Positions 5,422 to 26,169 of a stretch of DNA of 64,000 bases are shown here, piece after piece (the first letter of the stretch is position 1; each line of letters starts with the position of its first letter). The DNA is from Providencia rustigianii DSM 4541 (GTDB lineage Bacteria > Pseudomonadota > Gammaproteobacteria > Enterobacterales > Enterobacteriaceae), in NCBI RefSeq assembly GCF_000156395.1, contig NZ_GG703820.1:234325-298324 (forward strand), given 5' to 3'. Below the pieces are notes generated by a model, which saw only the letters and a program-made list of their open reading frames with translations, was not told the DNA's origin and did no database searches. A program made the position numbers and the translations under genes.

Positions 5422-6981
5422 ATGACTGTTTCGCGTAGAACCTTTATCAAAGGACTAGCAGCCAGCGGTGCAGCAATATCGGTTTCTAGTCCCGTTTTAG
5501 CCAATACCGGGATGCCTTCAAATGGCATGCCTTCTCGACCAGAGAAAGCACCCAACTTATTAATTATCTTTCCCGATGAAATGCGTGCCCATGCATTACA
5601 ATTTATGGGAGAAGATCCTTCGATTACCCCCAATCTGAATAAGTTTGCCAAACAAGCGAAAGTGATGACACAGATGGCTTCTAACTATCCATTGTGTTCA
5701 CCTTTTCGTGGCATGTTTATGACAGGGCAATACCCTGTTCGTAATGGGATTACCGGCAATACTCATGACTATGGCGGAAAAGTCGGTATTGATTTATCTC
5801 CGTATGCAAAATGTTGGTCTGATGTCCTTCAATCCTTAGATTACAGTACTGGCTATATTGGTAAGTGGCATTTAGATGCACCTTATGCCCCTTATATTGA
5901 AAGCTACAATAACCCGATGGAAGGACGGTATTGGAATGAATGGGCAGCGCCCGACCGCCGCCATGGATTCGATTTTTGGTACTCTTACGGCACATATGAT
6001 TTACATATGAAACCGATGTATTGGGGCAATAATACGCCTCGTGAAAAGCCGATCTATGTTGACCAGTGGGGACCAGAACACGAAGCCGATATGGCGATAA
6101 AATTCTTACGAAACGAAAATGGGCAATTTCGTGATGAAACCAAACCATTTGCATTAGTGGTTTCCATGAATCCCCCTCACTCACCTTATGACCAAGTTCC
6201 ACAAAAATACCTTGATGTTTATAAAGGAAAAACATCTAAAGAATTAAATACTCGTCCGAATGTTCAGTGGGATGCTGAATATCAAGAAGGCTATGGTCCA
6301 CAATATTTTAAAGAATATCTCGCCATGGTAAATGGCGTGGATGACCAGTTTGGCCGAATAATGAATGAGCTAGAAAAACAGGGACTTGATGATAATACGC
6401 TGGTTGTTTTCTTCTCTGATCATGGCAGTTGCCTTGGTGCTAATGGGCAGCCAACTAAAAATAACCCTTACGAAGAATCCATGAGGGTTCCAATGATGTT
6501 CCGTCTTCCGGGGAAAATTAAGGCCGGTCAAGACGATGCTTTAATGTCCGCACCGGATATTTATCCAACAATCTTAGGTTTGCTTGGACTAGAACAATGG
6601 ATACCTGGCTCTGTAGAAGGTAGCAACTTAGCTGAACGAGTCGCAACAGGTAAAGGGGATAGCGCCAGTTCTCAGCTTTATTTGTTTATCCCATACGGTG
6701 AACCTTCCTTTGGTAAACGCGGAGTACGCACCAAAACACACACATTGGTTATTGATCGCCAAGATGGACAACCATTGAAATATACACTTTACGATAATGT
6801 GAAAGATCCTTATCAAACGAAAAATGTTGCCGATGAGAATAAACCACTTATTGAAAAATTAATTAAAGAAGAGTTAACCCCTTGGTTAGAAAAAACCGGT
6901 GACTCTTGGAGACCAAGTGAATTTATTACTGCAACAACCAAAAAATTGAATAAGAAAATCACTGAATGTGAAGTGAAGTAA
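5422..6981 (+). CDS. Tat-exported Cys-type sulfatase
   Basis: A type I sulfatase of 519 residues, expected to hydrolyse sulfate esters on sugars in the periplasm. The N-terminus is a twin-arginine signal: SRRTFIKG at residues 4-11, then a hydrophobic stretch and an Ala-rich cleavage site near residue 28. The catalytic motif is C92-S-P-F-R, in which the cysteine is converted to formylglycine. FFSDHGS near residues 332-338 supplies metal ligands. Tat export implies that it folds, and so must be matured, in the cytoplasm; the maturase encoded at 18486-19721 is the obvious partner. It is followed by a KdgM-like porin gene with the same orientation. The real substrate position (4-O, 6-O or 2-O sulfate) cannot be read from the sequence. 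The start is set by GAGG eight bases before the ATG. Confidence 0.88.
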   Translation: MTVSRRTFIKGLAASGAAISVSSPVLANTGMPSNGMPSRPEKAPNLLIIFPDEMRAHALQFMGEDPSITPNLNKFAKQAKVMTQMASNYPLCSPFRGMFMTGQYPVRNGITGNTHDYGGKVGIDLSPYAKCWSDVLQSLDYSTGYIGKWHLDAPYAPYIESYNNPMEGRYWNEWAAPDRRHGFDFWYSYGTYDLHMKPMYWGNNTPREKPIYVDQWGPEHEADMAIKFLRNENGQFRDETKPFALVVSMNPPHSPYDQVPQKYLDVYKGKTSKELNTRPNVQWDAEYQEGYGPQYFKEYLAMVNGVDDQFGRIMNELEKQGLDDNTLVVFFSDHGSCLGANGQPTKNNPYEESMRVPMMFRLPGKIKAGQDDALMSAPDIYPTILGLLGLEQWIPGSVEGSNLAERVATGKGDSASSQLYLFIPYGEPSFGKRGVRTKTHTLVIDRQDGQPLKYTLYDNVKDPYQTKNVADENKPLIEKLIKEELTPWLEKTGDSWRPSEFITATTKKLNKKITECEVK

Positions 6982-7101
6982 TTCCATCCTTGCCATCTTA
7001 TTATTGATGGCAATTCTATAAACAAAAAAAACAATTTCCCAAATAAAACAGGGAATCATTTAAATAATGCTTAAATAGCCTCTAGCTTCGGAATAAAGAT
7101 A

Positions 7102-7821
7102 ATGAAAAAATTATTAATATCTGGCACCGTTTTGTTTTTAATGGCATCTAACTACACCTATGCAAATAATTACAAAACAACCATTGAATACCGCCATCAA
7201 TATTTAGATGCCTCAGGGAAAAGTGGTGACAGAATTAAAGCTTTTCTTGATACAGGGAAAAATATTGGTTTTGAATTAGATGCCCGTTATGGCAATAAAG
7301 ACGGCGCATATGATGCCATGAAAATTGACGGCTCTGAATTTTCAGCATTTTATTATACCAAACTCAATTCAAATTTAGTTGGACTTGTAGGCTCCTCACT
7401 CGACTTTGATAAACAAGGTCTTGTCTATGTTCCTTATGTCCGTCTGAACTACACCTTTGACAACGGTATTCGTTTACAAGGCCGTTATAAGTGGAAAGTT
7501 TGGGATTACGGCCAAGTCGGGGAAAATGGCAGTAACTACCACTCTAAAATTCAAGAGTTCGACAGCTGGATTGGTTATAAATGGGGTAAACTGGATCTTC
7601 AGTATCAATTAGATTTAATGTGGGAAATGGCGGATAACGCACAGCCACTTTATAATAATAAGAAATTCGATTATCAACATAACGTACGTCTTCGTTATGA
7701 TATAAAAACGGATGATGGTGCTTTATGGAGACCATTTGTTGAAGTTGGTAATGTGAAAGAAAGTAAGTTCTCCAGTGACCGACAAACCCGTTTCCGTGTT
7801 GGTATTCAATATACTTGGTAA
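7102..7821 (+). CDS. KdgM-like oligogalacturonate/acidic oligosaccharide porin
   Basis: A 239-residue outer-membrane beta-barrel of the KdgM/NanC family, which forms small channels for acidic oligosaccharides. It has a Sec signal peptide (about 1-21, ending YTYA), alternating aromatic and polar strands such as TTIEYRHQYLDASG, and a C-terminal aromatic strand ending RFRVGIQYTW, the hallmark for BAM-dependent insertion. Known KdgM proteins take up oligogalacturonates and NanC takes up sialic acid. Here it follows a sulfatase gene and faces a GH105 gene, so sulfated unsaturated uronate oligosaccharides are the likely cargo (inference). It is probably cotranscribed with the upstream sulfatase, and a strong terminator follows. 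Confidence 0.85.
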   Translation: MKKLLISGTVLFLMASNYTYANNYKTTIEYRHQYLDASGKSGDRIKAFLDTGKNIGFELDARYGNKDGAYDAMKIDGSEFSAFYYTKLNSNLVGLVGSSLDFDKQGLVYVPYVRLNYTFDNGIRLQGRYKWKVWDYGQVGENGSNYHSKIQEFDSWIGYKWGKLDLQYQLDLMWEMADNAQPLYNNKKFDYQHNVRLRYDIKTDDGALWRPFVEVGNVKESKFSSDRQTRFRVGIQYTW

Positions 7822-7850
7822 TATAATCAAAAATAAAATTCAATAATACA

Positions 7851-7888: not shown

Positions 7889-7903
7889 ATTTAAAAATAA
7901 AAA

Positions 7904-7983: not shown

Positions 7984-9051
7984 CTAATCTAATAACTTAA
8001 TAACTTCACTACCTGCTAATAAATAAGCTCCCGCACCATAATCCATGTTATGTTCAAATTTAACATCTCGAGGATTAAATGCCGGTAATTGAACCCAACC
8101 TAACATGCCATCTTCATGAATACAGTTTTTTAGCGCTCCCCATGCTTTTTCAAGTATTGGCAGATAACGCGTTTTATCTAATACACTTTGGTTTATCCCC
8201 CAAGCTAATCCATAACAAAATAGCGAGGTTGCACTACTTTCAGGAGCTGGGAAGCTTTGAGGATCCAACAGGCTTGTACGCCAGAAACCATCTTCTTGTT
8301 GATATTCCACAACAGACTCGATTAGCTCAACAAATAAATCTAAGTATTGTTGGCTTCCTGCAAAATCAGCTGGTAAATGCTGCAAGATACGCGGTACGGA
8401 GGCTATCACCCAGCCAATACCTCGGCTCCAAAAAACTTTTTCCCCATTGGCTTCACGTAATTCGCCCCCTTTTCCATCAGGAATATAACGATAATCCCGG
8501 TAAATCAAACCCGTTTCGGGATCTCGTAAATGCTCTACTGCATCCCAATAGGCCTGATGCATGTAAGCGAGATAGCGGGGATCAGCCGTTTTTGCTGACA
8601 ATGCAGCGAAAGCCGGTGGTGCCATAAAAAGGGCATCACACCACCACCAGTCCTCTCGACCTAATTTCGGTTCATCCAACATCAAATCAAATGCTTTTAT
8701 TGTCGGTTCAAGAACTTCCGGTTGAGAAAACTGCGAGCTGACGGCTAAATAAGCTTGTGTACACACATGATCATCGGCAAAACGAGGATTTGGCCCCGTG
8801 CGAAATCCGGTATGTAACGTATATTCCAACACCCCATCAAGATACTCACTGTCTTGAGTTGCTTGCCAAGCGGCAGCAACACACGACCACAGAACACCGC
8901 GTTCCCAATCTGTATCTTTGATAAAGCGTGTTTTACCACTGCGGCGAACCACACTACGAACCTGATGCTTTGATTGAAAACGATAAACACGTTTCATATC
9001 CTGCAAAACAACATCACGCTGTAATGACTGAGATGATAATACCTGTTCCAT
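7984..9051 (-). CDS. GH105 unsaturated uronyl hydrolase
   Basis: A glycoside hydrolase of family 105 (YteR/YesR type), which removes a delta-4,5-unsaturated uronic acid from the non-reducing end of lyase products by hydrating the double bond. The 355-residue protein has the (alpha/alpha)6 features: an early DWERGVLW segment (about 48-55) and the signature EDWWWCDALFMAPPAF with the proposed catalytic aspartate Asp139. There is no signal peptide, so it acts in the cytoplasm. Its neighbours kduI and kduD process exactly the unsaturated uronate it would release, while the aga genes process the amino sugar, so a sulfated or desulfated delta-uronyl-GalNAc-6-phosphate is a plausible substrate (inference). 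Rhamnogalacturonan fragments are the classical alternative, but no pectin genes are nearby. It is the last gene of the operon; AGGAGG precedes the ATG. Confidence 0.88.
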   Translation of the reverse strand: MEQVLSSQSLQRDVVLQDMKRVYRFQSKHQVRSVVRRSGKTRFIKDTDWERGVLWSCVAAAWQATQDSEYLDGVLEYTLHTGFRTGPNPRFADDHVCTQAYLAVSSQFSQPEVLEPTIKAFDLMLDEPKLGREDWWWCDALFMAPPAFAALSAKTADPRYLAYMHQAYWDAVEHLRDPETGLIYRDYRYIPDGKGGELREANGEKVFWSRGIGWVIASVPRILQHLPADFAGSQQYLDLFVELIESVVEYQQEDGFWRTSLLDPQSFPAPESSATSLFCYGLAWGINQSVLDKTRYLPILEKAWGALKNCIHEDGMLGWVQLPAFNPRDVKFEHNMDYGAGAYLLAGSEVIKLLD

Positions 9052-9069
9052 TTGGATCCTCCTGATGGA

Positions 9070-9825
9070 CTAGCGAGCGAGCCACCCACCATCAACGGCA
9101 ATCGTATATCCATTGATATAATCGCTGGCACTGGAAGCAAGGAAAATTGCAGGTCCCGCTAAGTCAGATGGCAGCCCCCAACGTCCAGCGGGAATACGCT
9201 CTAAAATCGCTGCATTACGCTCAGCATCAGCTCTTAGTGCTGCGGTATTATCTGTGGCCATATAACCCGGAGCGAGGGCATTCACATTAATATTATATTG
9301 AGAAAGCTCCGTCGCTAATGCGCGAGTTAACCCCATAACCGCAGATTTACTGGCAGTGTAAGAAGGCACTCGGATGCCGCCTTGGAATGACAACATTGAA
9401 GCAATATTGATAATTTTTCCGCCATTACCTTGCTTCACAAACTGACGAGCAACACGCTGGGATAAGAAAAAGAGCGTTTTTTGGTTAATATTAATGACAT
9501 CATCCCAATCTTTTTCACTAAATTCTAATAAGTCTTCACGACGAATAATCCCCGCATTATTCACCAGAATATCAATGTGCCCCATGGCAGATACCGCATC
9601 GTCCACAAGGTCTTGTAACTTATCTTGCTCCATTAAATTCATGACGACATAGTGGAATTTACGTCCCAACTTTTCGACTTCGGCACGTGTTTCTGGTGCA
9701 TCTTGTATTCCAACACCAACAATATCCGCCCCAGCTTGAGCTAATCCAATCGCCATACCTTGACCTAGACCTGTATTACATCCAGTGACAATGGCTACTT
9801 TTCCTGTTAAATCAAATAAATTCAT
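9070..9825 (-). CDS. kduD: 2-dehydro-3-deoxy-D-gluconate 5-dehydrogenase KduD
   Basis: KduD is a short-chain dehydrogenase that interconverts 3-deoxy-D-glycero-2,5-hexodiulosonate and 2-keto-3-deoxygluconate using NAD(H). The 251-residue protein shows the Rossmann glycine motif TGCNTGLGQG near residues 14-23, the NNAG motif near 89, and the catalytic SYTASK (Tyr and Lys near 153-157). It takes the product of KduI and feeds KdgK, which is encoded in the divergent operon at 24597. It lies between kduI and the GH105 gene, with 18 bases to the latter. Confidence 0.93.
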   Translation of the reverse strand: MNLFDLTGKVAIVTGCNTGLGQGMAIGLAQAGADIVGVGIQDAPETRAEVEKLGRKFHYVVMNLMEQDKLQDLVDDAVSAMGHIDILVNNAGIIRREDLLEFSEKDWDDVININQKTLFFLSQRVARQFVKQGNGGKIINIASMLSFQGGIRVPSYTASKSAVMGLTRALATELSQYNINVNALAPGYMATDNTAALRADAERNAAILERIPAGRWGLPSDLAGPAIFLASSASDYINGYTIAVDGGWLAR

Positions 9826-9903: not shown

Positions 9904-10734
9904 TTATTTCAAATCTGTCATTGCGACATGATCCATATCGTGGAATACCTGATTTTCACCCACCATTCCCCAGATAAATGTATAAGCCGCAGTACCGACA
10001 CCAGAATGAATTGACCAACTCGGGCTAATCACCGCTTGCTCATTACGCACCACAATATGACGAGTTTCGGTTGGTTCACCCATATAATGGAAAACCACGT
10101 TGTCATCTTTCATATCAAAATACAGATAAACTTCCATGCGGCGTTCATGGGTGTGGCATGGCATGGTATTCCATAGGCTGCCTGGCTCTAACACGGTCAT
10201 TCCCATAGATAACTGACATGTTGGTAGAATCGATGGATGTAAGAATTTATAAATTGTCCGTACGTTACAGTTCTCAACCTTACCCAGTTTTTCCGGTGAT
10301 GCTTGGTCAATGGTAATTTTGCGACTTGGGTAGGTATGATGGGCCGGGGCGCAGTTTATATAAAAACGTGCCGGATGATTGGCATCCGCACTGCTGAATT
10401 CTACTTCACGCGCGCCCATGCCAATGTAAAGTGCTTCACGAGGTGCAATTTCAAATATTTCCCCATCAACAACCACTTTACCTGCACCGCCAATATTGAT
10501 GGCACCCAGTTCACGACGTTCTAAGAAAAAATCAACGCCTAATGCTTTCCCTGCCATCAGTGCCAATGGCTTATGTGTTGGAACAATACCGCCTACGATA
10601 ATGCGGTCAATATGACTATAAGTGAGATTCATTTCCCCTTCACAAAACAATCCTTCGATTAAGAATTGTTTACGTAATCCAGCAGTATCCAGCGTTTTAG
10701 CGTGCTCACTGTGAATTGGTTGACGAATTTCCAT
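9904..10734 (-). CDS. kduI: 5-dehydro-4-deoxy-D-glucuronate isomerase KduI
   Basis: KduI is a zinc-dependent cupin isomerase that converts 5-keto-4-deoxyuronate to 2,5-diketo-3-deoxygluconate. The reading frame is open for another 26 codons upstream, but [17 protein letters not shown] matches the known family N-terminus, and GAGG is well spaced before this ATG, so I set the start at 10734, giving 276 residues. The metal site is visible as [11 protein letters not shown] (His-x-His and Glu near residues 196-203). It lies 37 bases downstream of agaA. The substrate arises from spontaneous rearrangement of the unsaturated uronate freed by GH105. Confidence 0.94.
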
Positions 10735-10771
10735 TATAAATACCTCATAATTTACAGGGGGAGTACCAAAC

Positions 10772-11944
10772 TCACGAGTTGGCTTTCCCATTAACAGAGT
10801 GAACGTGTTCACCTCTGATGAATGTGTCAGTTAAATAAAAGTTGTCATCGACAACCGCAAAACTTGCAACGGCGCCCTCGCGGATATAGCCATATTGCTG
10901 ACCAATGCCGAGATACTCCGCAGGCACCGCCGTCGCCATTTGTACCGCTTCCCATTCAGGAACTTGAGCGAGTTTCACCATATTGCGCAGTGCCGCATCC
11001 AAGCTACAGGTGCTACCGGCTAAAGAACCGTCTGCGGTTCTGGCTTGCCCTTGAGTCACCTGAACCATTTGAGCGCCCAAGGCATACTCGCCATCCGGTA
11101 ATCCCCCAGCACGCATACAATCAGTAATTAAGGCAACTTGCTGATAACCTTTCATGCGATATGCCAAGTTCATCATGACCGGATGAACATGAATGCCATC
11201 TGCTATCAATTCGGCGAGTACATCGTGATAGAGCACTGCACCACAGCAACCCGGTTCACGGTGATGTAATCCCGTCATACCGTTATAAAGATGCACGCCA
11301 CAATCAGCGCCGTGAGAAAATGCCTCGCTAGTTTGGGCAAAATCCGCTGCGGTATGGGCAACACTGGTTTTGATATTTTGTTGAACTAGCCAATCAATAG
11401 CATCAATAGCGCCATCAGCTTCAGGAGCCACCGCGACCCGTAATAACGAACCACCAGCACACTCTTGCAAAGATTTAAGTTCGCTGACGGTCGGAGCCTT
11501 GAGGTATTTCACTGGATGAGAACCTCGATGACGTTCAGTGAAATAAGGGCCTTCAAGAAAGCTTCCTAACAGTTGTGCACCTGATGTTTGCTGATGAGCC
11601 ATAAATTGACGAACTTGGATTAACGCGTGTTTAATATCGTCCATGGGTGCCGTAACCGTGGTTCCTACCCATGCCGCAACCCCCGTCTTGACCAAATCAT
11701 CCGCAATAATTTGCAATCCCTCTAAGCTTGCATCCATCACATCAGAACCTGCTCGACCATGAATATGAATGTCGACAAATCCTGGAAGCAATGAACGTCC
11801 TTTTAAATGCACGATGGGACAATTTTCTGGAGCAATACCCGTAATTTGTTGCACGGTCCCATTGCTAACGCAGACATATTGGTGCTGCTGTATACCCTCT
11901 GGCGTAAAAATTCGATCCGCTAAAATTGCGTATTGCTGGCTCAT
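10772..11944 (-). CDS. agaA: N-acetylgalactosamine-6-phosphate deacetylase AgaA
   Basis: An amidohydrolase-superfamily deacetylase of 390 residues, of the NagA/AgaA family. It shows the HIHGRAGSD metal motif near residue 60, [14 protein letters not shown] near 130, HTAA, the substrate-site [15 protein letters not shown] near 220, and the catalytic aspartate in [10 protein letters not shown]. Because it is embedded among agaS, agaVWEF and kbaZ, GalNAc-6-phosphate (giving galactosamine-6-phosphate) is the likelier substrate than GlcNAc-6-phosphate. Its ATG overlaps the agaF stop by four bases (ATGA), indicating translational coupling. The family assignment is secure; the epimer preference is inferred from context. 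Confidence 0.9.
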
Positions 11945-12372
11945 AATCCGTCTTCTTCATCTTCAAATTCAGATAATATTGACAGTTGCTCACGCAAGTC
12001 TTGGATACTGCTAACCCCAATTTCACGTAAGATGGAAATCAGCTCTTTTGCTGTGACGCCTTCTCGCTCAAACGCCGCATTCACAATCATGGGGAGGCTG
12101 ACACCGGAGAGAACTTCAACTGAAGGATTTTCCATCATGATCGCCATGGCGCGATTACAGGGTGTTCCACCCGGAAGATCCGTAAGAAATACAACTTGCT
12201 CACAAGGCATAGCTTGCATCGCACAGCGCATTTGCTGTTCCAGCTCATCAGGGGATATCGTCTCGATAAAATCGAGAAACACCATATTCTCTTGTTCACC
12301 CGCTATAGCTCTGACCGCCGACGCCATCCCACTTGCAAAATTTAAGTGCCCAGAAACAACCAAACCGATCAT
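11941..12372 (-). CDS. agaF: mannose-family PTS enzyme IIA (AgaF)
   Basis: A 143-residue cytosolic EIIA of the mannose/sorbose/galactosamine PTS family. It accepts phosphate from HPr on a histidine and passes it to EIIB. The N-terminus MIGLVVSGHLNFASG carries the expected active-site histidine (His9), and TDLPGGTPCNRA near residue 65 is typical of the fold. Unlike fused EIIAB proteins such as ManX, it is a stand-alone domain. It is separated from agaE by 57 bases that contain a strong hairpin, and overlaps agaA by four bases. Confidence 0.9.
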   Translation of the reverse strand: MIGLVVSGHLNFASGMASAVRAIAGEQENMVFLDFIETISPDELEQQMRCAMQAMPCEQVVFLTDLPGGTPCNRAMAIMMENPSVEVLSGVSLPMIVNAAFEREGVTAKELISILREIGVSSIQDLREQLSILSEFEDEEDGL

Positions 12373-12429: not shown

Positions 12430-13317
12430 TTACAGCACACCCAGTACATGACCAATAACGCCGAAGGCCAATGTTGAGAAAATCAGAACTGGTGGTTTAG
12501 CCCAGAAACCTGTGCCTTTCACCATTTTGAACATGAGGAATACCAAACCTAACGGTAATAAATTCGGCATGATTTTATCGAATAGCGCAGTTTGCAATTC
12601 CACCACTTTCCCGCCCAGCTCTAAGGAGGCGGTGGTTTGCACTTTGACAAAGGTGGCGGAAAGCGCCCCAATCACAAAGATCCCCATAATGTTGGCGGCT
12701 TTGGCTAATTTCTCAGTGGCATCACTCATGTTCACCATCGCCGCAGTTCCTGCGCGATATCCCATGAACATCAACCCGAAATAGACAAAAAAGTGAACAA
12801 TCTGGTAGAGGAAGAAGAAGACAAATGGGCCTGCAATCGAGCCATCCATCGCAATAGATGCACCTAACGCGAGGGTTAACGGCATCAATGTCATATGGTC
12901 AATAGCATCACCGATACCACCAGTAGGTCCCATACCCGCCACTTTCATGACGTTTACGGTTGATGGCTTCTCTTTGTTTTCTTCCATGGCAACCGCAGTG
13001 CCAAGTAAGAAAGTAAATAATTTTGGACTCGCATTGAAAAATTGCAGATGGTTTTTCAATGCCGTGGCATAGTCACGTTTATTATTACCATGAATTTTTT
13101 TCAGTGCAGGAATAATGGAGAAAGCAAAACCGCCACCTTGCATACGTTCAAAGTTAAAGTTCCCTTCCATAAATAATCCACGGAATGCACAGCGCCATAA
13201 GTCCTTTTTGGTAATGACTTTCCGTACGGTTGTATCTTGATATTCATCGATACCATCAACGTAAGATTGAGCAGGTAAGTTTTTCGTTTCTACCACGGCT
13301 TTATTATCAGATACCAT
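12430..13317 (-). CDS. agaE: mannose-family PTS enzyme IID (AgaE)
   Basis: EIID is one of two membrane subunits of mannose-family PTS permeases. The protein shows the conserved start of the domain (ITKKDLWRCAFRGLF near residues 34-48, then FNFERMQGGGF), the GPTGGIGDAIDHMTLMP segment, and several C-terminal hydrophobic helices. The frame is open further upstream, but MVSDNKAVVETKN with a GAGG site is the better start. It gives 295 residues and overlaps the end of agaW by 11 bases. The charged 30-residue leader before the domain is typical. With agaW, agaV and agaF it makes a complete permease. Confidence 0.9.
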   Translation of the reverse strand: MVSDNKAVVETKNLPAQSYVDGIDEYQDTTVRKVITKKDLWRCAFRGLFMEGNFNFERMQGGGFAFSIIPALKKIHGNNKRDYATALKNHLQFFNASPKLFTFLLGTAVAMEENKEKPSTVNVMKVAGMGPTGGIGDAIDHMTLMPLTLALGASIAMDGSIAGPFVFFFLYQIVHFFVYFGLMFMGYRAGTAAMVNMSDATEKLAKAANIMGIFVIGALSATFVKVQTTASLELGGKVVELQTALFDKIMPNLLPLGLVFLMFKMVKGTGFWAKPPVLIFSTLAFGVIGHVLGVL

Positions 13318-14077
13318 CTTCAAAATCCTCGCTTGGCTGTGAATTATTTTTGTTACCATTTCCACTGAAAAAGTAGTAAAGCGCTGCGGCAGATGCACCG
13401 AGAATAGCCACGGCCATGATTGGTAGTTTCAAGTAGGTTGTCATCACGAAACCAACGAAGAACACCCCAGCCACTTCTTTCGACCACATAATTTTCAATA
13501 GCATTGCAAAACCAATCGCAGGCACCATTTTCGCGCCAATACCTAAGCCTTCGAGCAATACTTTTGGTGTATTTTGATCAATCCATTCCGCAGCATGTTC
13601 GCCGAAATACACCGTGACGAAAGCCACAATGGCGTAAAGTAATGAACGTATCGTTATTGTGACGACTAAAAGCCTTGATATTCCCCCAGCATCTGCGTTT
13701 TCTGCATAACGATCAGCTTTACCCATGGTAAATGCAGTCATCGCGAAGAAACCAATAATCAACATTTGCATTAATACGGCGATGGGCATCCCAATCCCCA
13801 TGGCAACTTCAGGGGGCTGTTTAGTCATTACTGCAAAAGCGACCGCGGCGATGGTACCTAATGTCACATCCGGTGGCTGAGCTCCCGCATTCGGTACTAA
13901 TCCCAGCCAGGCCAGCTCAAGAGTTGCACCTGCGATTAACCCGATTTGCATATCCCCCATAATCAAACCCACAACAGGTCCGGTAATCAGAGGGCGGTGA
14001 ATGTTTAATGCAACGTCATACTTATCAATACCGCAAAAGAAGGCCCATAAAGCCACTAACGAAGCTTCAAAGATCAT
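13307..14077 (-). CDS. agaW: mannose-family PTS enzyme IIC (AgaW)
   Basis: EIIC is the sugar-translocating membrane subunit. The 256-residue protein is strongly hydrophobic, with the family features FCGIDKYDVALNIHRPLITGPVVG near the N-terminus, then LIAGATLELAWLGLVPNAGAQPPDV near residues 48-72, and a polar acidic tail. AAGGA precedes the ATG. It overlaps agaE by 11 bases and lies 49 bases after agaV. The specificity label follows context. An unsaturated disaccharide built on GalNAc is possible, as described for PTS-linked glycosaminoglycan clusters of streptococci. Confidence 0.9.
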   Translation of the reverse strand: MIFEASLVALWAFFCGIDKYDVALNIHRPLITGPVVGLIMGDMQIGLIAGATLELAWLGLVPNAGAQPPDVTLGTIAAVAFAVMTKQPPEVAMGIGMPIAVLMQMLIIGFFAMTAFTMGKADRYAENADAGGISRLLVVTITIRSLLYAIVAFVTVYFGEHAAEWIDQNTPKVLLEGLGIGAKMVPAIGFAMLLKIMWSKEVAGVFFVGFVMTTYLKLPIMAVAILGASAAALYYFFSGNGNKNNSQPSEDFEDGI

Positions 14078-14126: not shown

Positions 14127-14621
14127 TTATGCGGATGCGAGAGCTAAAACATTCACGGGTGTTTGGTCGGGAGTATTTTGAATGGTGCAAGTCACGCCTT
14201 TATCAACTAGGCGGCGAAATGCATCTAAGTCACGCTCATCCACTGACACTGTTTTAGTGATTTGGCGCTTCCCTTCATGGAAATGCATATTGCCAACATT
14301 ACAGTGAGTGATAGGCACTCCGCCTTCCACCAGACGGGCGACATCGGTCGGATTATTACAAAGAACGAAGATTTTTTGACGTGGTGATGCCTTGCTAATG
14401 ACATCAATTGTCTTCTGAATAGAGAAAAAACGAACAGCATATTCTCCACCCGCAGACGCTTTCATTCCTGCTTGCATGAAGGCGGCATTAGGTCCTTCCG
14501 CAGCATCATCATTTGCAACAAGAATTAAATTTGCTTCAGTGTGTTTACCCCAAGTAATACGGATTTGCCCATGTAATAAGCGCTCATCGATTCGGGTCCA
14601 AACAATATTAGGTGTGTGCAT
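14127..14621 (-). CDS. agaV: mannose-family PTS enzyme IIB (AgaV)
   Basis: A 164-residue cytosolic EIIB that carries phosphate on a histidine and phosphorylates the sugar during transport. The signature IDERLLHGQIRITW places the active histidine at His17. The remaining sequence (LILVANDDAAEGPNAA, FVLCNNPTDVARLVEGG) is typical of the family. It is the first PTS gene of the operon, 33 bases downstream of agaS. The order agaS-agaV-agaW-agaE-agaF differs from the E. coli aga locus, where agaS lies after the PTS genes. Confidence 0.9.
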   Translation of the reverse strand: MHTPNIVWTRIDERLLHGQIRITWGKHTEANLILVANDDAAEGPNAAFMQAGMKASAGGEYAVRFFSIQKTIDVISKASPRQKIFVLCNNPTDVARLVEGGVPITHCNVGNMHFHEGKRQITKTVSVDERDLDAFRRLVDKGVTCTIQNTPDQTPVNVLALASA

Positions 14622-17960: not shown

Positions 17961-17991
17961 TTTCATCTCCTTACGAAATCAATCGAATTAC

Positions 17992-18485: not shown

Positions 18486-19721
18486 ATGTCCTCAAAACAA
18501 CCCGCTTATTTTCATATGATGGCAAAGCCCACTAGCTATCACTGCAATATAAAATGTGAGTATTGCTTTTACCTTGAAAAAGAAAATGTTTTCAATGAGG
18601 AAACCCAAAACGGTCAGCACGATGTGATGCCCGACAATGTATTGCGACGCTATATCAAAGACTATATTCAGTCCAATGCAGGCGACCAAGTCGATTTTTC
18701 ATGGCAAGGTGGTGAGCCGACGCTCGCGGGGCTGCCATTTTTTGAACGCGTTGTGGAATACCAAAAGCAATATGCCCAAGGAAAAACCATCACCAATAGT
18801 GTGCAAACCAACGCTATCGCAATTAACCGCCAGTGGGCTCAGTTTTTCGCCGACAACCATTTTTTACTCGGAGTCTCTATTGATGGGCTCGAAGCCGTTC
18901 ACGATAAATACCGTATCTCAGTCAACGGTAATCCAACATTTGAGCGCGTCAAAAAATCTATCCAGCTCCTCATTGAGTATGGCGTTGAATTTAATACGTT
19001 GACCGTCGTTAACGACCAAAACTGGCGCAAGGGTAAAGAAACCTATCAAGCTCTCAAGGCACTAGGTTCCACCTTTTTCCAGTTTATTCCTATCGTTGAA
19101 GTGGATAGACGTTTCCCTCATACCCAAGGTGGTCATTACGCTCCGGGACCGAATGCGGTCATGGCTCCATTTTCCGTACCAAGTGATGGATATGGGCAAT
19201 TTATGGCAGATGTATTTGATGAGTGGATTCGCCAAGGTGATGTAGGAAAAATCTATGTACGTCTCTTCGACAGCTTATTAGGCACATGGATGGGCTACCC
19301 TGCCTCAACGTGTATTCAATCAAAAACCTGTGGTCAGGCATTAATTATCGAAGCAAATGGTGATGTTTACTCATGCGATCACTATGTTTACCCGGCTAAT
19401 CGCCTCGGAAATGTGAATCAAAATACCTTGGCTCGCATTGTCACGTCAAAACAACAGCTGCGCTTTGGGCAAAACAAATACGACAAGTTAACCAATCTTT
19501 GCAAAAAATGCGAGGTTCAGAGCCTCTGTTACGGAGGCTGTCCAAAGCATCGCATTATTTCCATTGAAGGCGAAAAATATCGTCATAACTATTTATGTAG
19601 TTCTTATAAAAAGATTTTTAATCATACGGCTTTAGGTATGCGACTTATGCAGCAAGCGATTACTCAAGGTGCAATCGCCAGTGATGCGCTCCCTGCAATG
19701 CAGCGTGCTTATAAGCAATAA
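18486..19721 (+). CDS. anaerobic sulfatase-maturating enzyme (anSME)
   Basis: A radical-SAM/SPASM enzyme of 411 residues that oxidises the active-site cysteine (or serine) of sulfatases to formylglycine in the cytoplasm. The radical-SAM cluster motif is C20-x3-C24-x2-C27 (CNIKCEYC). DFSWQGGEPTLAG near residue 75 is typical of the family. The C-terminal SPASM cysteines appear as CIQSKTCGQ, YSCDHY and CKKCEVQSLCYGGCPKH. It is the first gene of the rightward operon and is followed after 25 bases by a sulfatase gene. It probably serves both sulfatases in the window, both of the Cys type. I am confident of the function. Confidence 0.94.
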   Translation: MSSKQPAYFHMMAKPTSYHCNIKCEYCFYLEKENVFNEETQNGQHDVMPDNVLRRYIKDYIQSNAGDQVDFSWQGGEPTLAGLPFFERVVEYQKQYAQGKTITNSVQTNAIAINRQWAQFFADNHFLLGVSIDGLEAVHDKYRISVNGNPTFERVKKSIQLLIEYGVEFNTLTVVNDQNWRKGKETYQALKALGSTFFQFIPIVEVDRRFPHTQGGHYAPGPNAVMAPFSVPSDGYGQFMADVFDEWIRQGDVGKIYVRLFDSLLGTWMGYPASTCIQSKTCGQALIIEANGDVYSCDHYVYPANRLGNVNQNTLARIVTSKQQLRFGQNKYDKLTNLCKKCEVQSLCYGGCPKHRIISIEGEKYRHNYLCSSYKKIFNHTALGMRLMQQAITQGAIASDALPAMQRAYKQ

Positions 19722-19746
19722 TTTTATCTATCTGGAGATAGCTTCC

Positions 19747-21354
19747 GTGAATTTACCGTCTGTGAAAAAAAGCCTACTTGCTGGGCTGATAGCCACCAGT
19801 TGTTTAGTTCCCCCGATTGCTGCTAACGCTGGGGGAACACCGGAAAAGCCTAATGTTCTCTTAATTGTTATGGATGACTTGGGTACTGGTCAGCTTGACT
19901 TTGTCCTCGATAGCCTCGATGTGAATGAGTTATCCAAGCGCCCAGCGCCATCACGCTACGATGGTGACATTAATAAAATGGTGGAAGCCGCAAGAATCGC
20001 AATGCCAAATGTCTCTGAAATGGCAGCTGGCGGTATCAAGATGACCAACGCATTTGTTGCTCATCCGGTATGTGGCCCATCACGCGCAGGGATTTTTACT
20101 GGGCGTTCTCCCGCCAGCTTTGGCACTTATAGCAATGATGATGCGATGTTAGGCATTCCAGAAGATATCAAATTGCTTCCAGCTCTGTTCCAAGAAGATG
20201 GCTACGCCACGGCCAGTATTGGTAAATGGCACAATGCAAAAGTCATAAAAAAACCAAAAATTGCCGAAGATAAGCAAACCCGAGACTATCATGACAATAT
20301 GATCTCTACACCAGAGCCAGGATTTGCACCCCATGAAAGAGGATTCGATTACGCCTACAGTTATTACGCTTCTGGTGCGGCTCTTTGGAATTCACCCGCT
20401 ATTTGGCGCAATGGTGAAAATGTTCCCGCACCGGGCTATATAACCCATTTGTTAACGGATGAAACCATTAAATTCATTGATGGCCACAAAGACAAACCTT
20501 TCTTCATTAATTTATCGTATAGCGTTCCTCATATCCCGCTAGAGGAGGCTTCTCCCGCCAAATATATGGATAAATTTAATACCGGTAATGTTGAGGCGGA
20601 TAAGTATTTTGCTGCATTAAATGCCGCAGATGAAGGGATCGGTAAAATCATAACCACCTTGAAAGAAAACGGTGAGCTCGAAAATACCCTGATTTTCTTT
20701 ATTTCTGATAACGGCGCCGTCCATGAGTCTCCAATGCCAATGAATGCGATGGATAAGGGCTTTAAAGGGCAAATGTTTAATGGTGGGGTTAGTGTACCGT
20801 TTGTGGCTTATTGGCCAGGCCATATTCCTGCGGGAAAACAAAGTGATGCGATGGTTTCAGCCATCGATATTCTACCGACCGCGTTGCAAAGCGCTGGGAT
20901 CACCATTCCTGACAGCCTGAAAGTAGAAGGTAAAAATATTATGCCGCTACTTCAAGGGAAAACACAAAAATCACCACATCAATATCTGTATTGGACAGGT
21001 CCCGGAACTAAACATTACAGCGAAGAGAATCAGGATTTTTGGCACGGTTATCATGAGTGGATCACTTATCAACGTAAAGAGGCACCAAAAAATCCGAATC
21101 TCGAAAAATTATCTAAAGGTTCATGGGCTGTTCGTGATGGTGAATGGGCTCTCTATTTTTATGATGACGGTACCAACCAGCCTAAATTATTCAATGACAA
21201 ACAAGATCCATCTGAATCCATTGATTTGGCCTCCAAATACCCTGAAAAAGTTAAACAACTAAAATCGGCCTATTACCAGTGGGTGAAAGACCAACCTAAG
21301 CCGGTGGTTTGGGGACAAGACCGCTATCAAGTTCTCGTTGATTCAGCAAAATAA
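19747..21354 (+). CDS. Sec-exported Cys-type sulfatase
   Basis: A second type I sulfatase, of 535 residues. The frame is open back to 19669 inside the maturase gene, but GTG at 19747 follows CTGGAG at a good distance and yields a proper Sec signal peptide (KKSLLAGLIATSCLVPPIAANA), so I start there. Metal-binding Asp43-Asp44 lie in LLIVMDDLGTG. The catalytic motif is C109-G-P-S-R, followed by AGIFTGR. FFISDNGA contributes further metal ligands. It differs clearly from the Tat-exported sulfatase, so the two probably attack different sulfate positions. It is cotranscribed with the maturase. The substrate is inferred to be a sulfated galactosaminoglycan oligosaccharide. Confidence 0.9.
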   Translation: MNLPSVKKSLLAGLIATSCLVPPIAANAGGTPEKPNVLLIVMDDLGTGQLDFVLDSLDVNELSKRPAPSRYDGDINKMVEAARIAMPNVSEMAAGGIKMTNAFVAHPVCGPSRAGIFTGRSPASFGTYSNDDAMLGIPEDIKLLPALFQEDGYATASIGKWHNAKVIKKPKIAEDKQTRDYHDNMISTPEPGFAPHERGFDYAYSYYASGAALWNSPAIWRNGENVPAPGYITHLLTDETIKFIDGHKDKPFFINLSYSVPHIPLEEASPAKYMDKFNTGNVEADKYFAALNAADEGIGKIITTLKENGELENTLIFFISDNGAVHESPMPMNAMDKGFKGQMFNGGVSVPFVAYWPGHIPAGKQSDAMVSAIDILPTALQSAGITIPDSLKVEGKNIMPLLQGKTQKSPHQYLYWTGPGTKHYSEENQDFWHGYHEWITYQRKEAPKNPNLEKLSKGSWAVRDGEWALYFYDDGTNQPKLFNDKQDPSESIDLASKYPEKVKQLKSAYYQWVKDQPKPVVWGQDRYQVLVDSAK

Positions 21355-21406: not shown

Positions 21407-22882
21407 ATGGCGACACCAATCACTCCGACAGAACGTCCAAAGCTCCCTTATGAGCATCCCGACCTTCAGATCTATAAAAAATTATTCAAGCAGAATGTGA
21501 TTCGACGATTTGTTCGTAAGTCTGCGTATAAAAACCATGATGATTTTATGATTAAAATCTTTCAAGATCGTACTCAATCACTTTCATCTCTTTGCGAAAC
21601 TCTTGTTCGTTATGTTGCGGAAGCATTTTCCCATTATCAGGTTTGGGACTATACCCATGCTTATTATCCCGGCCGCCCGGGGCAGCAAACTGTTCGTACC
21701 GATGCTTTAGAGGGAGTAAGCCGCGTACTTCCTTTATTCGCGGCGTGGTTAATTCATAGCCGTCAAGAGACGCTGAATGGCTTAAATTTACAGTCTATTC
21801 ATATCAGCGATATGATCCGCCAAGCTTTTATTCACGGTACCGACCCAACACATAAAGGCTACTGGGGAAAACTTGAAAATTATGATCAAAAAATTTGTGA
21901 ATCCGCAGATTTAGCATTAACACTCTGGCTCAGTAAAGACTGGGTCTGGGATAAATTAGAACCCAGATTGCAGCAGCAAATCATCACATGGTTTGAGCAA
22001 GTTAATCATTGTGAGATTGTCGATAATAATTGGCATTTGTTCCCTCTCTTGGTTCAATTTGTTATTCGAGATCTCACCGGTATCAACCATATTGCCCTGT
22101 GGCGCTATGACCGAGTCAAAGAGTTTTATGTGGGAGATGGGTGGTTTCGAGATGGTGCTAAAGGCAATTTTGATTACTATAATGCATGGGGATTTTACTA
22201 TTCCCTTTATTGGCTTAACCAAATATCCCCCGATTTCGATACTGATTTTATCCAACAATCACTCAATCACTTTAATCAACATTACCTGCATTTTATGACG
22301 CCGACTGGCATTCCTTTTTTTGGACGCAGTGCATGTTACCGACTGGCCGTTTCCGCACCGCTTATTGCTGGCGTGGATTTAGGCTGTTCATCCGTCACTG
22401 TGGGTGAAGCAAAAAATGCCTTGGAAAATACGCTACGCTATTTTATTAGCCATGGGGCATTTAAAGCAGGAGCTCCAACACAAGGATTATTCAGTGATGA
22501 TCCTCGATTAGTCGATAATTACAGCGGTCCAGCAAGCAGTTTTTGGTCATTAAGAGCCGTCATTGTTGCGCTCTATTGTGGTCAACGAATCGATCTTTGG
22601 GAGGCTCTAGCCAATCCCCTGCCTATCGAAAAATCTGACTTTCATTTCGAAATACCGGCCATCAAAGCCTCGGTGATTGGCGTCAAAGAAACCCAAGAAG
22701 TAACGGTGATATTTCGTGAGGAATATACCCACCAGCAAAGCCCGTTAACACGCCGCTTAGAACAGCAATCTTGTACACAAAAAATCGTTGAGAACCTGAT
22801 AGGTCAATCAAGAAGACCAAAAAACAATCTGTTACGCAAAGGTATCACCAGCTATAGCTCCAAAATGTCACATTATTTTTAA
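21407..22882 (+). CDS. DUF2264 family protein, possible glycan-active enzyme
   Basis: A 491-residue protein that I assign to the uncharacterised DUF2264 family from the pattern GDGWFRDGAKGNFDYYNAW near residue 242 and an alpha-helical layout. There is no signal peptide or membrane segment, so it is probably cytoplasmic. The alternating helices and aromatic-rich motifs recall (alpha/alpha)-toroid carbohydrate enzymes such as GH88, GH105 or lyase domains, but that is inference. It sits between a sulfatase and kbaY in a rightward catabolic operon, 52 bases after the sulfatase stop. It could trim imported oligosaccharides by hydrolysis or elimination. No catalytic residue can be named. This is the only enzyme-sized gene in the island without an assigned step. 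Confidence 0.7.
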   Translation: MATPITPTERPKLPYEHPDLQIYKKLFKQNVIRRFVRKSAYKNHDDFMIKIFQDRTQSLSSLCETLVRYVAEAFSHYQVWDYTHAYYPGRPGQQTVRTDALEGVSRVLPLFAAWLIHSRQETLNGLNLQSIHISDMIRQAFIHGTDPTHKGYWGKLENYDQKICESADLALTLWLSKDWVWDKLEPRLQQQIITWFEQVNHCEIVDNNWHLFPLLVQFVIRDLTGINHIALWRYDRVKEFYVGDGWFRDGAKGNFDYYNAWGFYYSLYWLNQISPDFDTDFIQQSLNHFNQHYLHFMTPTGIPFFGRSACYRLAVSAPLIAGVDLGCSSVTVGEAKNALENTLRYFISHGAFKAGAPTQGLFSDDPRLVDNYSGPASSFWSLRAVIVALYCGQRIDLWEALANPLPIEKSDFHFEIPAIKASVIGVKETQEVTVIFREEYTHQQSPLTRRLEQQSCTQKIVENLIGQSRRPKNNLLRKGITSYSSKMSHYF

Positions 22883-23850
<968 letters not shown>

Positions 23851-23898
23851 CTCCATTAATAATCAAGTGACATAACATCTCACGATGCAAGGAATACC

Positions 23899-24477
23899 AT
23901 GAAACAAGTTGCTGTTTTACTCGCGGATGGCTTTGAAGAGGGAGAAGCCGTTGTTTTTATCGATATTATGCGTCGATTGGATATCCATGTTGATGTCCTT
24001 TCGTGTATGGATAGCTTAGTTTTAAATACCTATTTTGGGACAAAAATTAGTGCCGATTTCCTACTAAGTGAAAAATTATCTCACAGTTATGACGCTATCA
24101 TGATGCCCGGTGGCCCAAAAGGCACTGATAGACTTTGCGCCAATAACGATGTTATTAACTTTATCCGTCGACATATTCAAGAAGATAAATACATTTGCAC
24201 CCTGTGTTCATCTGGCGCTAAAGTACTCGCCGCACATCATTTACTGGAAGGACGCCAATACAGCACTGGCGATAAACTTGCGGATAAATTCGAAGATGGA
24301 ACCTACATTGATCAAGATGTCGTGGTTGATGGTAAATTTATTAGTGCGAAAGGTTTAGGTGTCAGTTTTGAGTTTGCGTTTACTGTTGCGCGCCATTTAC
24401 TCAGTGATAATAGTGAAAAAGTAGACTGGCAAGCTAATCATATTTATTTTAAACACTGGCCACTAACTTATCTTTAA
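23899..24477 (+). CDS. DJ-1/PfpI superfamily protein
   Basis: A 192-residue protein of the DJ-1/ThiJ/PfpI superfamily. It shows the N-terminal VAVLLADGFEEGEA with the conserved glutamate (Glu15), the PGGPKGTDRL loop near residues 70-79, and the nucleophile elbow YICTLCSSGAKVLA with Cys103 as the likely active residue. Characterised members act as chaperones, glyoxalases or suspected deglycases. Why one is embedded between kbaY and kdgK is unclear. Detoxification of reactive keto-aldehydes or dicarbonyls formed from unsaturated uronates is a plausible role (inference). It is cotranscribed with its neighbours, with AAGGA before the ATG. Confidence 0.85.
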   Translation: MKQVAVLLADGFEEGEAVVFIDIMRRLDIHVDVLSCMDSLVLNTYFGTKISADFLLSEKLSHSYDAIMMPGGPKGTDRLCANNDVINFIRRHIQEDKYICTLCSSGAKVLAAHHLLEGRQYSTGDKLADKFEDGTYIDQDVVVDGKFISAKGLGVSFEFAFTVARHLLSDNSEKVDWQANHIYFKHWPLTYL

Positions 24478-24596
24478 TCCTATAAAAAATCGGAGTAAAG
24501 GCTGATTTTTCAGTCTTTACTTTTCACCCAACGCTCTCTATTTAATTCATGAAAATTCACGATCAACGATGGATCGTCATCACGTAGGTGATAAAA

Positions 24597-25529
24597 ATGA
24601 GTACACATCAGCAAGTCGCGGTTATCGGCGAATGTATGGTTGAGTTACAGAAATCAGGTGAATTATACAAACAAAGTTTTGGTGGGGATACTCTCAATAC
24701 TGCATTGTATCTTTCCCGTTTAACGAAAGATCATGGTGTCGTAACGCGCTATCTCACCGGATTAGGAAAAGATCCCTTTAGCCAACAGATGATTGAGAGT
24801 TGGGAAAAAGAAGGAATAAATACAGAAGATGTTTTTCTTTCTGAAAAAGCGCTACCTGGTATGTATTTAATTGAAACGTCCCCCGATGGTGAGCGACGTT
24901 TTTTCTATTGGAGAGATAATTCTGCGGCGAAGTTTTGGCTCAATGATCGCACCCAAGAACAAACTCAGCAGCGGCTTAACCAGCAAAATTATATTTATCT
25001 GAGCGGTATTAGCTTGGCAATTTTACCCGAGGAACCGCGTCAATGTTTATTAACGATGCTCAAAATAGCCAAACAACAGGGCGCAAAAATTATATTTGAT
25101 AATAATTATCGCCCTACTCTTTGGCAATCGCCCAACATTGCCCAGCAAGCTTATCAGCAAATTCTCCATCTTACCGATATCGCTTTTCTCACCTTTGATG
25201 ATGAAAAATCTCTCTATGGTGATACTCATGAAAATGACACTATCGCCCGTACACAACAATATGGGGTACCAGAAATTGTGATTAAACGCGGAGGGGATGA
25301 TTGTTTCGTCATCATTGATAACCACTGCATTAGCATTGCAGCCAATCAAATTGACCACATCATTGATACAACCGCGGCGGGGGACTCATTTAGTGCAGGA
25401 TATTTAGCCAGTCGAATTCTCGGCGCATCCCCTAATGAAGCCGCAAAAATGGGGCATTTATTAGCCGGAACAGTTATCCAACACCGGGGCGCTATCATTC
25501 CACTAGATGCAATGCCAACTATTGACTGA
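24597..25529 (+). CDS. kdgK: 2-keto-3-deoxygluconate kinase KdgK
   Basis: A PfkB/ribokinase-family kinase that phosphorylates 2-keto-3-deoxygluconate to KDPG. From the ATG at 24597, preceded by AGGTG, the protein has 310 residues, close to the E. coli enzyme. It begins VAVIGECMVELQ, has the sugar-binding SFGGDTLNTALYLSRL near residues 27-42, and ends with the ATP/anion-hole motif DTTAAGDSFSAGYLA near 257-271, with its catalytic aspartate. It takes the product of KduD and feeds the eda product that follows after 22 bases. Confidence 0.93.
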   Translation: MSTHQQVAVIGECMVELQKSGELYKQSFGGDTLNTALYLSRLTKDHGVVTRYLTGLGKDPFSQQMIESWEKEGINTEDVFLSEKALPGMYLIETSPDGERRFFYWRDNSAAKFWLNDRTQEQTQQRLNQQNYIYLSGISLAILPEEPRQCLLTMLKIAKQQGAKIIFDNNYRPTLWQSPNIAQQAYQQILHLTDIAFLTFDDEKSLYGDTHENDTIARTQQYGVPEIVIKRGGDDCFVIIDNHCISIAANQIDHIIDTTAAGDSFSAGYLASRILGASPNEAAKMGHLLAGTVIQHRGAIIPLDAMPTID

Positions 25530-25551
25530 GCAAAAGATAAAAGGATACCCA

Positions 25552-26169
25552 ATGAACCAACTCATTGAAAAATTAACCGCACTCAGCGTCGTGCCCGTAA
25601 TCACTATCAATCATGCTAAGCACGGCACTTCAATTGCCAAAGCATTAATGGAAAATGGTTTACCTTGTGCCGAAGTCACTTTTCGTACTGATGCCGCCGT
25701 TGATGCAATTAAAAATATGCGAGCCGCCTATCCAGATTTACTGATTGCCGCAGGTACTATTTTAACGACCCAACAAGTTGATCTTGCTATTGATGCCGGT
25801 GTCGATTTTATTGTTAGTCCGGGGTTTAATCCTAAAATTGTTAGCTACTGCCAACAAAAAAATATCCCCATCATCCCCGGTGTGAATAACCCGAGCTTAG
25901 TTGAACAAGCTCTTGAATTTAATCTGACTACATTAAAATTCTTTCCAGCGGAAGCTTCAGGCGGTGTATCGATGCTCAAGGCTTTAGGGACGGTTTATCC
26001 CGTTCGTTTTATGCCTACAGGGGGAATTAATACAGAAAATATCCACCAATATAATTCATTATCTTCGGTCATTGTCTGTGGTGGGTCTTGGATGGTTCCG
26101 GCTGATTTGGTCGATAATGAACAGTGGGAAGAACTCGGTAAGCTTATCGCTGAGGCGGCGAACATTTAA
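25552..26169 (+). CDS. eda: KDPG aldolase (Eda family)
   Basis: A class I aldolase of 205 residues that splits 2-keto-3-deoxy-6-phosphogluconate to pyruvate and glyceraldehyde-3-phosphate. The frame is open 15 codons further upstream, overlapping kdgK, but AAGGA precedes the ATG at 25552, and MNQLIEKLTALSVVPVI is the normal start. The catalytic residues are visible: Glu41 in AEVTFRTDAA and the Schiff-base Lys129 in TLKFFPAEASGG. It completes the uronate branch. A second eda copy elsewhere in the genome would be usual; this one appears dedicated to the island. It is the last gene before the convergent carB. Confidence 0.93.
   Translation: MNQLIEKLTALSVVPVITINHAKHGTSIAKALMENGLPCAEVTFRTDAAVDAIKNMRAAYPDLLIAAGTILTTQQVDLAIDAGVDFIVSPGFNPKIVSYCQQKNIPIIPGVNNPSLVEQALEFNLTTLKFFPAEASGGVSMLKALGTVYPVRFMPTGGINTENIHQYNSLSSVIVCGGSWMVPADLVDNEQWEELGKLIAEAANI

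Follow-up and report, generated by a model that had tools for sequence, protein, structure and literature searches.

How could an enterobacterium use the machinery for breaking down chondroitin if it has no detectable lyase of the usual kind to cut the polymer? The question is raised by an island at positions 5422-26169 of a 64,000-nucleotide stretch of Providencia rustigianii DSM 4541 DNA (contig NZ_GG703820.1, positions 234,325 to 298,324; hereafter the window). Flanked by a DedA-family gene and carB and part of a genome of some 3.98 Mb, the island combines two sulfatases, a mannose-family phosphotransferase system (PTS), a GH105 unsaturated uronyl hydrolase and enzymes for both uronate and amino-sugar breakdown. 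We consider it likely that the island serves catabolism of chondroitin sulfate (possibly dermatan sulfate) disaccharides, that it corresponds to the chondroitinase ABC locus of Proteus minus the two lyases, and that its owner is a scavenger which imports desulfated disaccharides and dehydrates the saturated ones in the cytoplasm. This answer draws on gene content, residue conservation, location judged from leader sequences, linkage across genomes, and the absence of polysaccharide lyase family 8 (PL8) and of the heparinase II/III domain. The overlooked candidate dehydratase and the missing lyases are what is of interest here, the combined PTS/uronate locus itself being already known.

Missing lyases and an overlooked candidate dehydratase

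PL8 (PF02278) was found neither in the window, nor in its own genome, nor in any of the 24 Providencia genomes searched, and the heparinase II/III C-terminal domain was likewise absent from all 24; the lyase search consisted of these two families, PL6 (chondroitinase B), PL13 and hyaluronidase hydrolases lying outside it. The built-in control genomes give no signal for PL8; as a positive control, a pair of PL8 genes turned up in every one of the nine Proteus genomes searched.

What the island does carry is a DUF2264 protein of the former family GH154, whose nearest solved relatives are 8oi4 and BcGDH (9o4u, 9nwf), the beta-D-glucuronate dehydratase of Bacteroides caccae. BcGDH converts the saturated terminal glucuronate (GlcA) of a chondroitin disaccharide mimic to the 4,5-unsaturated form, which is then cleaved by a GH88 enzyme, and alanine mutants of ten of its active-site residues have no detectable activity (PMC12269599). 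All ten of these residues (E74, R78, N176, N177, W178, F181, Y229, R285, Y289 and Y354) are the same in the printed alignment with the window protein, where they correspond to E102, R106, N207, N208, W209, F212, Y258, R307, Y311 and Y372; the mapped BcGDH chain is an R285A mutant, and the wild-type chain 9o4u shows R at this position. The ten are also invariant in 14 rows from a whole-protein search and in a 45-row alignment that includes the window, although the latter was fetched by the patterns DNNWHLF or G[RQ][AS]xRPKNNL, so that N207, N208, W209 and F212 were partly preselected. An AlphaFold2 model of the protein (mean pLDDT 92.6) has GH154 structures as its top PDB folds, with query TM scores of 0.54-0.60 at 19-21% identity. 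Taken together, sequence and model make this protein a candidate beta-D-glucuronate dehydratase. We had also considered the C-terminal RPKNNL as a phosphate-binding mark of PTS loci and dropped it, since R470 and N473 are invariant also without PTS or GH105 (in 10 aligned relatives from 13 loci where neither was detected, RPKNNL itself being a search pattern).

PL8 is present in 44 of 49 other DUF2264-bearing genomes searched (taken from 50 of the 80 DUF2264 loci that we fetched), those without it being Photobacterium aphoticum, P. iliopiscarium, Vibrio rhodolitus, V. renipiscarius and Psychromonas sp. CD1. In a second set it is present in six of 18 DUF2264-bearing genomes, and five of the 11 non-Providencia carriers in that set lack it (G254, G331, G352, G364 and G488); the PL8-less carriers of the two sets overlap, three apparently being shared. 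Lack of the lyases, which we had entertained as a peculiarity of Providencia, is thus not unique to the genus. Viewed from the other side, the six PL8-bearing genomes of the family (among 198) have a full-length DUF2264 in three cases (G092, G183 and G226), only a 28% match in one, and none in two.

Gene content and comparison with Proteus

Genes were identified by profile searches against curated family cut-offs, Pfam domains and PDB matches. Every gene named in the initial annotation is present where it had been placed; the DUF2264, AgaR and DJ-1/PfpI genes had been left out. The features of the island are as follows.

5422-6981, +: Sulfatase 1, Cys-type (PF00884; best PDB match 6j66, 762 bits); twin-arginine-like leader MTVSRRTFIKG
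7102-7821, +: KdgM-family oligouronate porin (PF06178, E 7e-35)
7984-9051, -: GH105 unsaturated uronyl hydrolase (PF07470, GH88/105; best PDB match 4ce7, 233 bits); N-terminus not hydrophobic
9070-9825, -: KduD (TIGR01832, over cut-off)
9904-10812, -: KduI (NF002091, over cut-off); profile match from residue 27, so that the true start is probably inside the open reading frame (ORF)
10772-11944, -: AgaA, NagA-family GalNAc-6-phosphate deacetylase (TIGR00221, over cut-off)
11941-12372, -: PTS IIA, AgaF (NF040761, over cut-off)
12430-13398, -: PTS IID (NF040760/TIGR00828, 232-246 bits against cut-offs of 293-500); ORF overlaps IIC, start probably further in
13307-14077, -: PTS IIC, AgaW family (NF040757, 335 bits, cut-off 300); by its tree position, GH105-linked lineage
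14127-14621, -: PTS IIB (NF008508, 181.5 bits, cut-off 180)
14655-15839, -: AgaS, galactosamine-6-phosphate deaminase/isomerase (TIGR02815, 523 bits, cut-off 529)
15848-17131, -: KbaZ (NF012002, over cut-off)
17184-17966, -: AgaR repressor (NF040755, 420 bits, cut-off 260)
18486-19721, +: anaerobic (radical SAM) sulfatase maturase (TIGR03942, over cut-off)
19669-21354, +: Sulfatase 2 (PF00884; PDB 6bia, 6b0k, 9hh3, 4fdi); Sec-like leader, start inside ORF
21407-22882, +: DUF2264, former GH154, candidate beta-D-glucuronate dehydratase (PF10022, E 3e-79; PDB 8oi4, 9o4u, 9nwf)
22996-23850, +: KbaY, tagatose-bisphosphate aldolase (TIGR01858, over cut-off)
23899-24477, +: DJ-1/PfpI protein (PF01965), a conserved neighbour
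24588-25529, +: KdgK (NF052444, over cut-off)
25507-26169, +: Eda (TIGR01182, over cut-off)

AgaS and IID fall under their cut-offs, yet the families given are the best-scoring ones for each. The elements of a Proteus-type locus (PTS IIABCD, an unsaturated uronyl hydrolase, Kdu and aga genes and a sulfatase) therefore lie in one cluster; PL8 chondroitinase ABC I/II is not among its members, and no tagatose-6-phosphate kinase was recognised among the island genes.

The initial annotation had called the uronyl hydrolase GH105 rather than GH88, and its structural relatives agree. The nearest are 4ce7 (an ulvan unsaturated uronyl hydrolase), 5noa and 4q88, followed by YteR and other GH105 entries, and none of the ten PDB rows at E<=0.001 bears the name of a UGL-type unsaturated glucuronyl hydrolase; 5noa and 4q88 are labelled "family 88" by their depositors. 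Sulfatase 1 would resemble in specificity its closest relative, a chondroitin/dermatan sulfate 4-O-endosulfatase (6j66). For Sulfatase 2, the nearest solved relatives are S1_19/carrageenan sulfatases and then GalNAc-6-sulfatases, from which its position specificity may be predicted.

A simple hydrophobicity check found a twin-arginine-like leader in Sulfatase 1 and, if translation starts inside the ORF, a Sec-like leader in Sulfatase 2; the same check found no export signal in GH105 or DUF2264. Judged by leader sequence, desulfation would therefore apparently take place outside and cleavage inside, and the intact disaccharide would have to cross the inner membrane; apart from the PTS, no inner-membrane transporter was recognised among the island genes.

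The gene order in Proteus, a comparison proposed with the initial annotation, is collinear with the window from Sulfatase 1 through KbaY, minus the lyases. The genes of P. mirabilis ATCC 29906 run Sulfatase 1, PL8, PL8, GH105, KduD, KduI, AgaA, IIA, IID, IIC, IIB, AgaS, KbaZ and AgaR, followed by the maturase, Sulfatase 2, DUF2264, KbaY, KdgK, Eda and DJ-1. Between Sulfatase 1 and GH105, this chondroitinase ABC locus of P. mirabilis holds about 3.5 kb of unassigned DNA and then the two PL8 genes, whereas the window has only the KdgM porin gene there; KdgK, Eda and DJ-1 also stand in another order than in the window, and KdgK and Eda are only 42-51% identical. The PL8 pair adjoins GH105 in two further Proteus.

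Within Providencia, the gene set from Sulfatase 1 to DJ-1 recurs in six of 23 other genomes and is therefore not a product of chance. One of these, G017, has the island at the same site, while the stretches read for the other five contain no metC, dedA or carB; of the stretches read, just those of the window and G017 have KdgK and Eda inside the locus. Comparison with G017 indicates purifying selection on all eight genes analysed (dN/dS 0.003-0.09; DUF2264 0.09, GH105 0.06), and for DUF2264, dS is saturated against the more distant Providencia genomes. Gene matches are full-length in the window and five other Providencia. In G011 (L007, L010 and L012; assembly 96% complete, 4% contaminated), stops interrupt DUF2264 and the KduI match is split, which is possibly decay or sequencing error.

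As to regulation, a scan of the island's intergenic stretches with an E. coli AgaR-operator consensus gave 15 sites with at most six mismatches, against a simulated mean of 6.3 and a count reached in three of 200 simulations. The best-scoring site of the whole window falls inside kbaZ, so that the evidence for AgaR operators in the intergenic stretches is suggestive only.

The PTS lineage and related loci

If one molecule supplies both halves of the pathway, the PTS should be tied to the uronate genes. Among 394 Enterobacterales genomes searched with the window IIC (E<=1e-25) and GH105 (E<=1e-30), 81 had an IIC match, and all 13 matches at least 46% identical to the window IIC are accompanied on their contig by GH105 at a distance of 2.3-5.4 kb. 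GH105 matches of at least 56% identity are confined to these 13 genomes; the remaining ones, at most 43% identical, occur in eight genomes without any listed IIC. No GH105 stood beside the listed IIC matches of at most 45% identity, nine of which were checked by script (five of the strongest, including the second IIC of G352, and four other second IICs) and the rest from lists; G254, G352, G385, G424 and G488 carry such an additional IIC (41-43%) without GH105 nearby. Fisher's exact test on these genomes (13/0 versus 0/68) gives 3e-15, a value to be read with the caution that the genomes are not independent. Twelve of these 13 genomes, and no others of the 394, have DUF2264 at E<=1e-60.

The native E. 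coli AgaW, annotated as a GalNAc transporter, is 40% identical to the window IIC, and the two stand apart in a tree of 44 IIC rows, in which the non-GH105 group takes in one of the 29 GH105-linked rows and leaves out the other 28. The rows were picked by hand, three label changes were needed and the basal forks are open; for rows L096, L104 and L169, GH105 was later confirmed in the adjoining stretches of all three. Against the NCBIfam AgaPTS cut-offs, IIA, IIB and IIC of the window score over and IID below. The only other EII-Sor protein in the genome is 28% identical to the window IIC and is taken for ManY.

We also examined DUF2264 neighbourhoods, fetching 80 of 101 loci over a range of 10 kb or to the contig end. 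Sixty-seven of these have a DUF2264 at least 42% identical to that of the window, accompanied by GH105 or PTS IIB/IIC/IID in 44, the sulfatase maturase in 55, Sulfatase 2 in 49, DJ-1 in 46 and KbaY in 44; for the 23 without GH105 or PTS, this holds within the range examined. None of the 13 more distant loci had GH105, PTS, maturase, Sulfatase 2, DJ-1 or KbaY in range. The DJ-1/PfpI protein, which so often accompanies the dehydratase, might have the aldehyde-ketone products released by GH105 as its substrates. DUF2264 proteins of 42-46% identity also occur in Pasteurellaceae (Pasteurella, Volucribacter, Spirabiliibacterium and Avibacterium; L149, L151-L155, L158 and L161), with a Sulfatase 1-type gene nearby in seven of these eight loci.

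A second class of loci, from Vibrio, Aliivibrio and Salmonella diarizonae (L125, L127, L137, L148 and L156), has an IIC 46-53% identical to that of the window together with GH105 and DUF2264, and no AgaA, AgaS, KbaY or KbaZ within 10 kb. A compact operon in E. coli SLK172 (L177:12338-24579) and on a plasmid of E. coli 0H26 (L178:7610-18215) consists of DeoR, IIB-IIC-IID-IIA, GH105, DUF2264, a hypothetical gene, PL8 and an autotransporter; insertion-sequence genes lie near it and it looks mobile. Its hypothetical gene (L177:18460-19464), between DUF2264 and PL8, encodes 334 amino acids without a Pfam match. Of 5,426 E. coli genomes, 40 gave a partial DNA match to GH105 and 46 to IIC (60-80% identity), six of them on plasmids. 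We infer that the second-class loci are hyaluronan (GlcNAc) versions, the E. coli operon probably so, a reading that fits the published PTS hyaluronan locus of Vibrio alginolyticus (PMC8222515). Salmonella diarizonae CCUG 30040T (L156 and L131) and Aliivibrio sp. EL58 (L148 and L133) each have one chondroitin-type and one second-class DUF2264 locus.

The PTS, GH105 and DUF2264 thus persist as a unit alongside a varying amino-sugar half, which speaks for import of a single molecule. The initial annotation had joined the galactosamine-type PTS to the unsaturated-uronate pathway, a link that is borne out by the 13 close IIC genes and by the survival of the pair in loci without aga enzymes; probably, a single imported uronyl-GalNAc disaccharide feeds both halves. 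The further proposal that this disaccharide is the unsaturated one had overlooked the glucuronate dehydratase candidate and is not supported: a saturated substrate is also conceivable, and the genome has no detectable PL8 by which unsaturated ends could be made.

The proposed route, its rivals and its precedents

In the route that we propose, disaccharides made by other organisms or by host enzymes would enter the periplasm by way of the KdgM-type porin, and the two periplasmic formylglycine sulfatases would strip the 4- and 6-sulfate, freeing C6 of GalNAc. The PTS would then import the disaccharide and phosphorylate GalNAc at C6; periplasmic 6-desulfation would have a reason, because in a streptococcal system PTS phosphorylation needs a free C6 (PMC6837340). 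In the cytoplasm DUF2264 would dehydrate a saturated GlcA to the 4,5-unsaturated uronate, a step skipped where the uronate is already unsaturated. GH105 would release the unsaturated uronate to KduI, KduD, KdgK and Eda, and GalNAc-6-phosphate would pass to AgaA, AgaS, a tagatose-6-phosphate kinase (none was recognised among the island genes) and KbaYZ. We infer all substrate specificities in this route (sulfatase positions, PTS and dehydratase) and the order of its steps. A bolder version, which we hold tentatively and at somewhat less than even confidence, is that a lyase-free route exists in Providencia in which a dedicated PTS takes up saturated GlcA-GalNAc and phosphorylates it, after which the phosphodisaccharide is dehydrated in the cell and cleaved by GH105. 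The same dehydratase would then be a conserved, overlooked step in glycosaminoglycan loci of Proteus, Yersinia, Edwardsiella, Salmonella arizonae, Vibrionaceae and the mobile-looking E. coli operon.

Several observations weigh against the scavenger route. Within the lyase families searched, no source of disaccharides was found. Identity between DUF2264 and the characterised BcGDH is only about 20%, their sequence alignment leaves out roughly the last 110 residues of the window protein, and former GH154 members differ in substrate (PMC12269599). Its role as a simple substitute for a lyase is weakened by the 44 of 49 carriers that have PL8, and two genomes (G115 and G236) have PL8 without DUF2264. 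Genome G376 has the PTS and GH105 and no DUF2264, either at the threshold used or in its locus. The IIC of Endozoicomonas elysicola sits inside the non-GH105 tree group, yet has GH105 in the same locus; the window IIC scores over the cut-off of AgaW, a family named for free GalNAc, so that it may transport GalNAc; and the first-class Salmonella loci L131 and L132 (IIC 85%) have no complete aga enzyme gene within 10 kb. Impaired growth of a P. mirabilis ptsH mutant on chondroitin sulfate C speaks for the route, but weakly, since loss of ptsH is pleiotropic and the passages concerned show no aga PTS mutant on this substrate (PMC13289894).

Some of these points would favour a reading in which only lyase-made unsaturated disaccharides are used, DUF2264 contributing only on the side, perhaps with disaccharides from chain ends or a different glucuronide as substrate: most DUF2264 carriers searched can make unsaturated disaccharides with their own PL8, and G376 manages without the dehydratase. 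We regard this as unlikely, given that DUF2264 accompanies PTS and GH105 in 12 of 13 genomes, is under purifying selection between two lyase-less Providencia and keeps ten of ten catalytic-site residues. That the PTS imports free GalNAc only, the uronate half being merely adjacent and fed by a transporter elsewhere in the genome, would suit the presence of AgaR, AgaA, AgaS and KbaYZ and the AgaW score of IIC. We rejected it as very improbable on the genomic linkage of the IIC lineage with GH105, which extends to loci without aga enzymes; the genome's single other EII-Sor protein is the presumed ManY (other transporter families lay outside this search). The idea of a Proteus-type remnant that lost its lyases and is decaying, or now serves for other sulfated glycans, mucin-type GalNAc6S for instance, would account for the lack of PL8 throughout Providencia and the broken genes of G011, but is hardly credible beside low dN/dS in eight genes and breaks confined to that one genome, where sequencing error is possible.

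We return to the scavenger route and its precedents. The initial annotation had presented the combination as undescribed, a claim overtaken by two publications. According to a 2022 review, the lyase genes of P. vulgaris share an operon with sulfatase, delta-GH, PTS and monosaccharide genes, the review's section on the locus making no mention of a dehydratase such as the DUF2264 candidate of the window (PMC9067506). The Vibrio alginolyticus locus, published in 2021, is likewise Gram-negative and combines PTS import of an unsaturated disaccharide with an unsaturated glucuronyl hydrolase (called GH88) and uronate enzymes; unlike the window it serves hyaluronan (GlcNAc) and has two PL8 genes, and no sulfatase or tagatose route is named in the text available (PMC8222515). 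In Streptococcus agalactiae a mannose-family hyaluronan PTS imports a delta-uronyl-hexosamine disaccharide and phosphorylates C6, as proposed here, and its authors consider 6-sulfated disaccharides unsuitable for the PTS; that system is Gram-positive and lyase-dependent, and the word sulfatase is absent from the main text (PMC6837340). For Yersinia pseudotuberculosis, a 2015 table gives a PTS(GalNAc)/chondro-6-sulfatase/kduD2 cluster and, listed separately, a chondroitin ABC lyase (PMC4641178).

The dehydratase step has parallels of its own. In B. caccae PUL25 the GH154 enzyme BcGDH primes saturated terminal chondroitin GlcA for an unsaturated uronyl hydrolase, in a setting that differs from the window in having a PL35 lyase and GH88, and no PTS in the text available; the ulvan dehydratase P29_PDnc similarly acts with GH105 in place of a glucuronidase, but is unrelated to DUF2264 in sequence and has ulvan as its substrate (PMC12269599). 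The E. coli aga locus (K-12, YSP8-1) shares AgaR, KbaZ/Y, AgaS, AgaA and a mannose-family PTS for GalNAc with the window, and differs in its 40% identical IIC and in that GH105, sulfatase and DUF2264 are all missing from the stretches shown. A paper on KduI/DhuI clusters has no Providencia, Proteus or PTS in its main text (PMC12838403). In the open-access literature searched we found no paper that joins DUF2264 and chondroitin, and none that reports the dehydratase in enterobacterial loci of this kind or a Providencia island without lyases.

Chondroitinase ABC from Proteus serves as a standard reagent, and a likely dehydratase step in the locus that encodes it appears to have gone unremarked in the open-access papers searched. 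If our reading is true, the dehydratase would explain how these bacteria use saturated chain ends and the products of host hyaluronidases, and the lyase-less Providencia would be scavengers dependent on lyase producers such as Proteus in gut or urinary communities.

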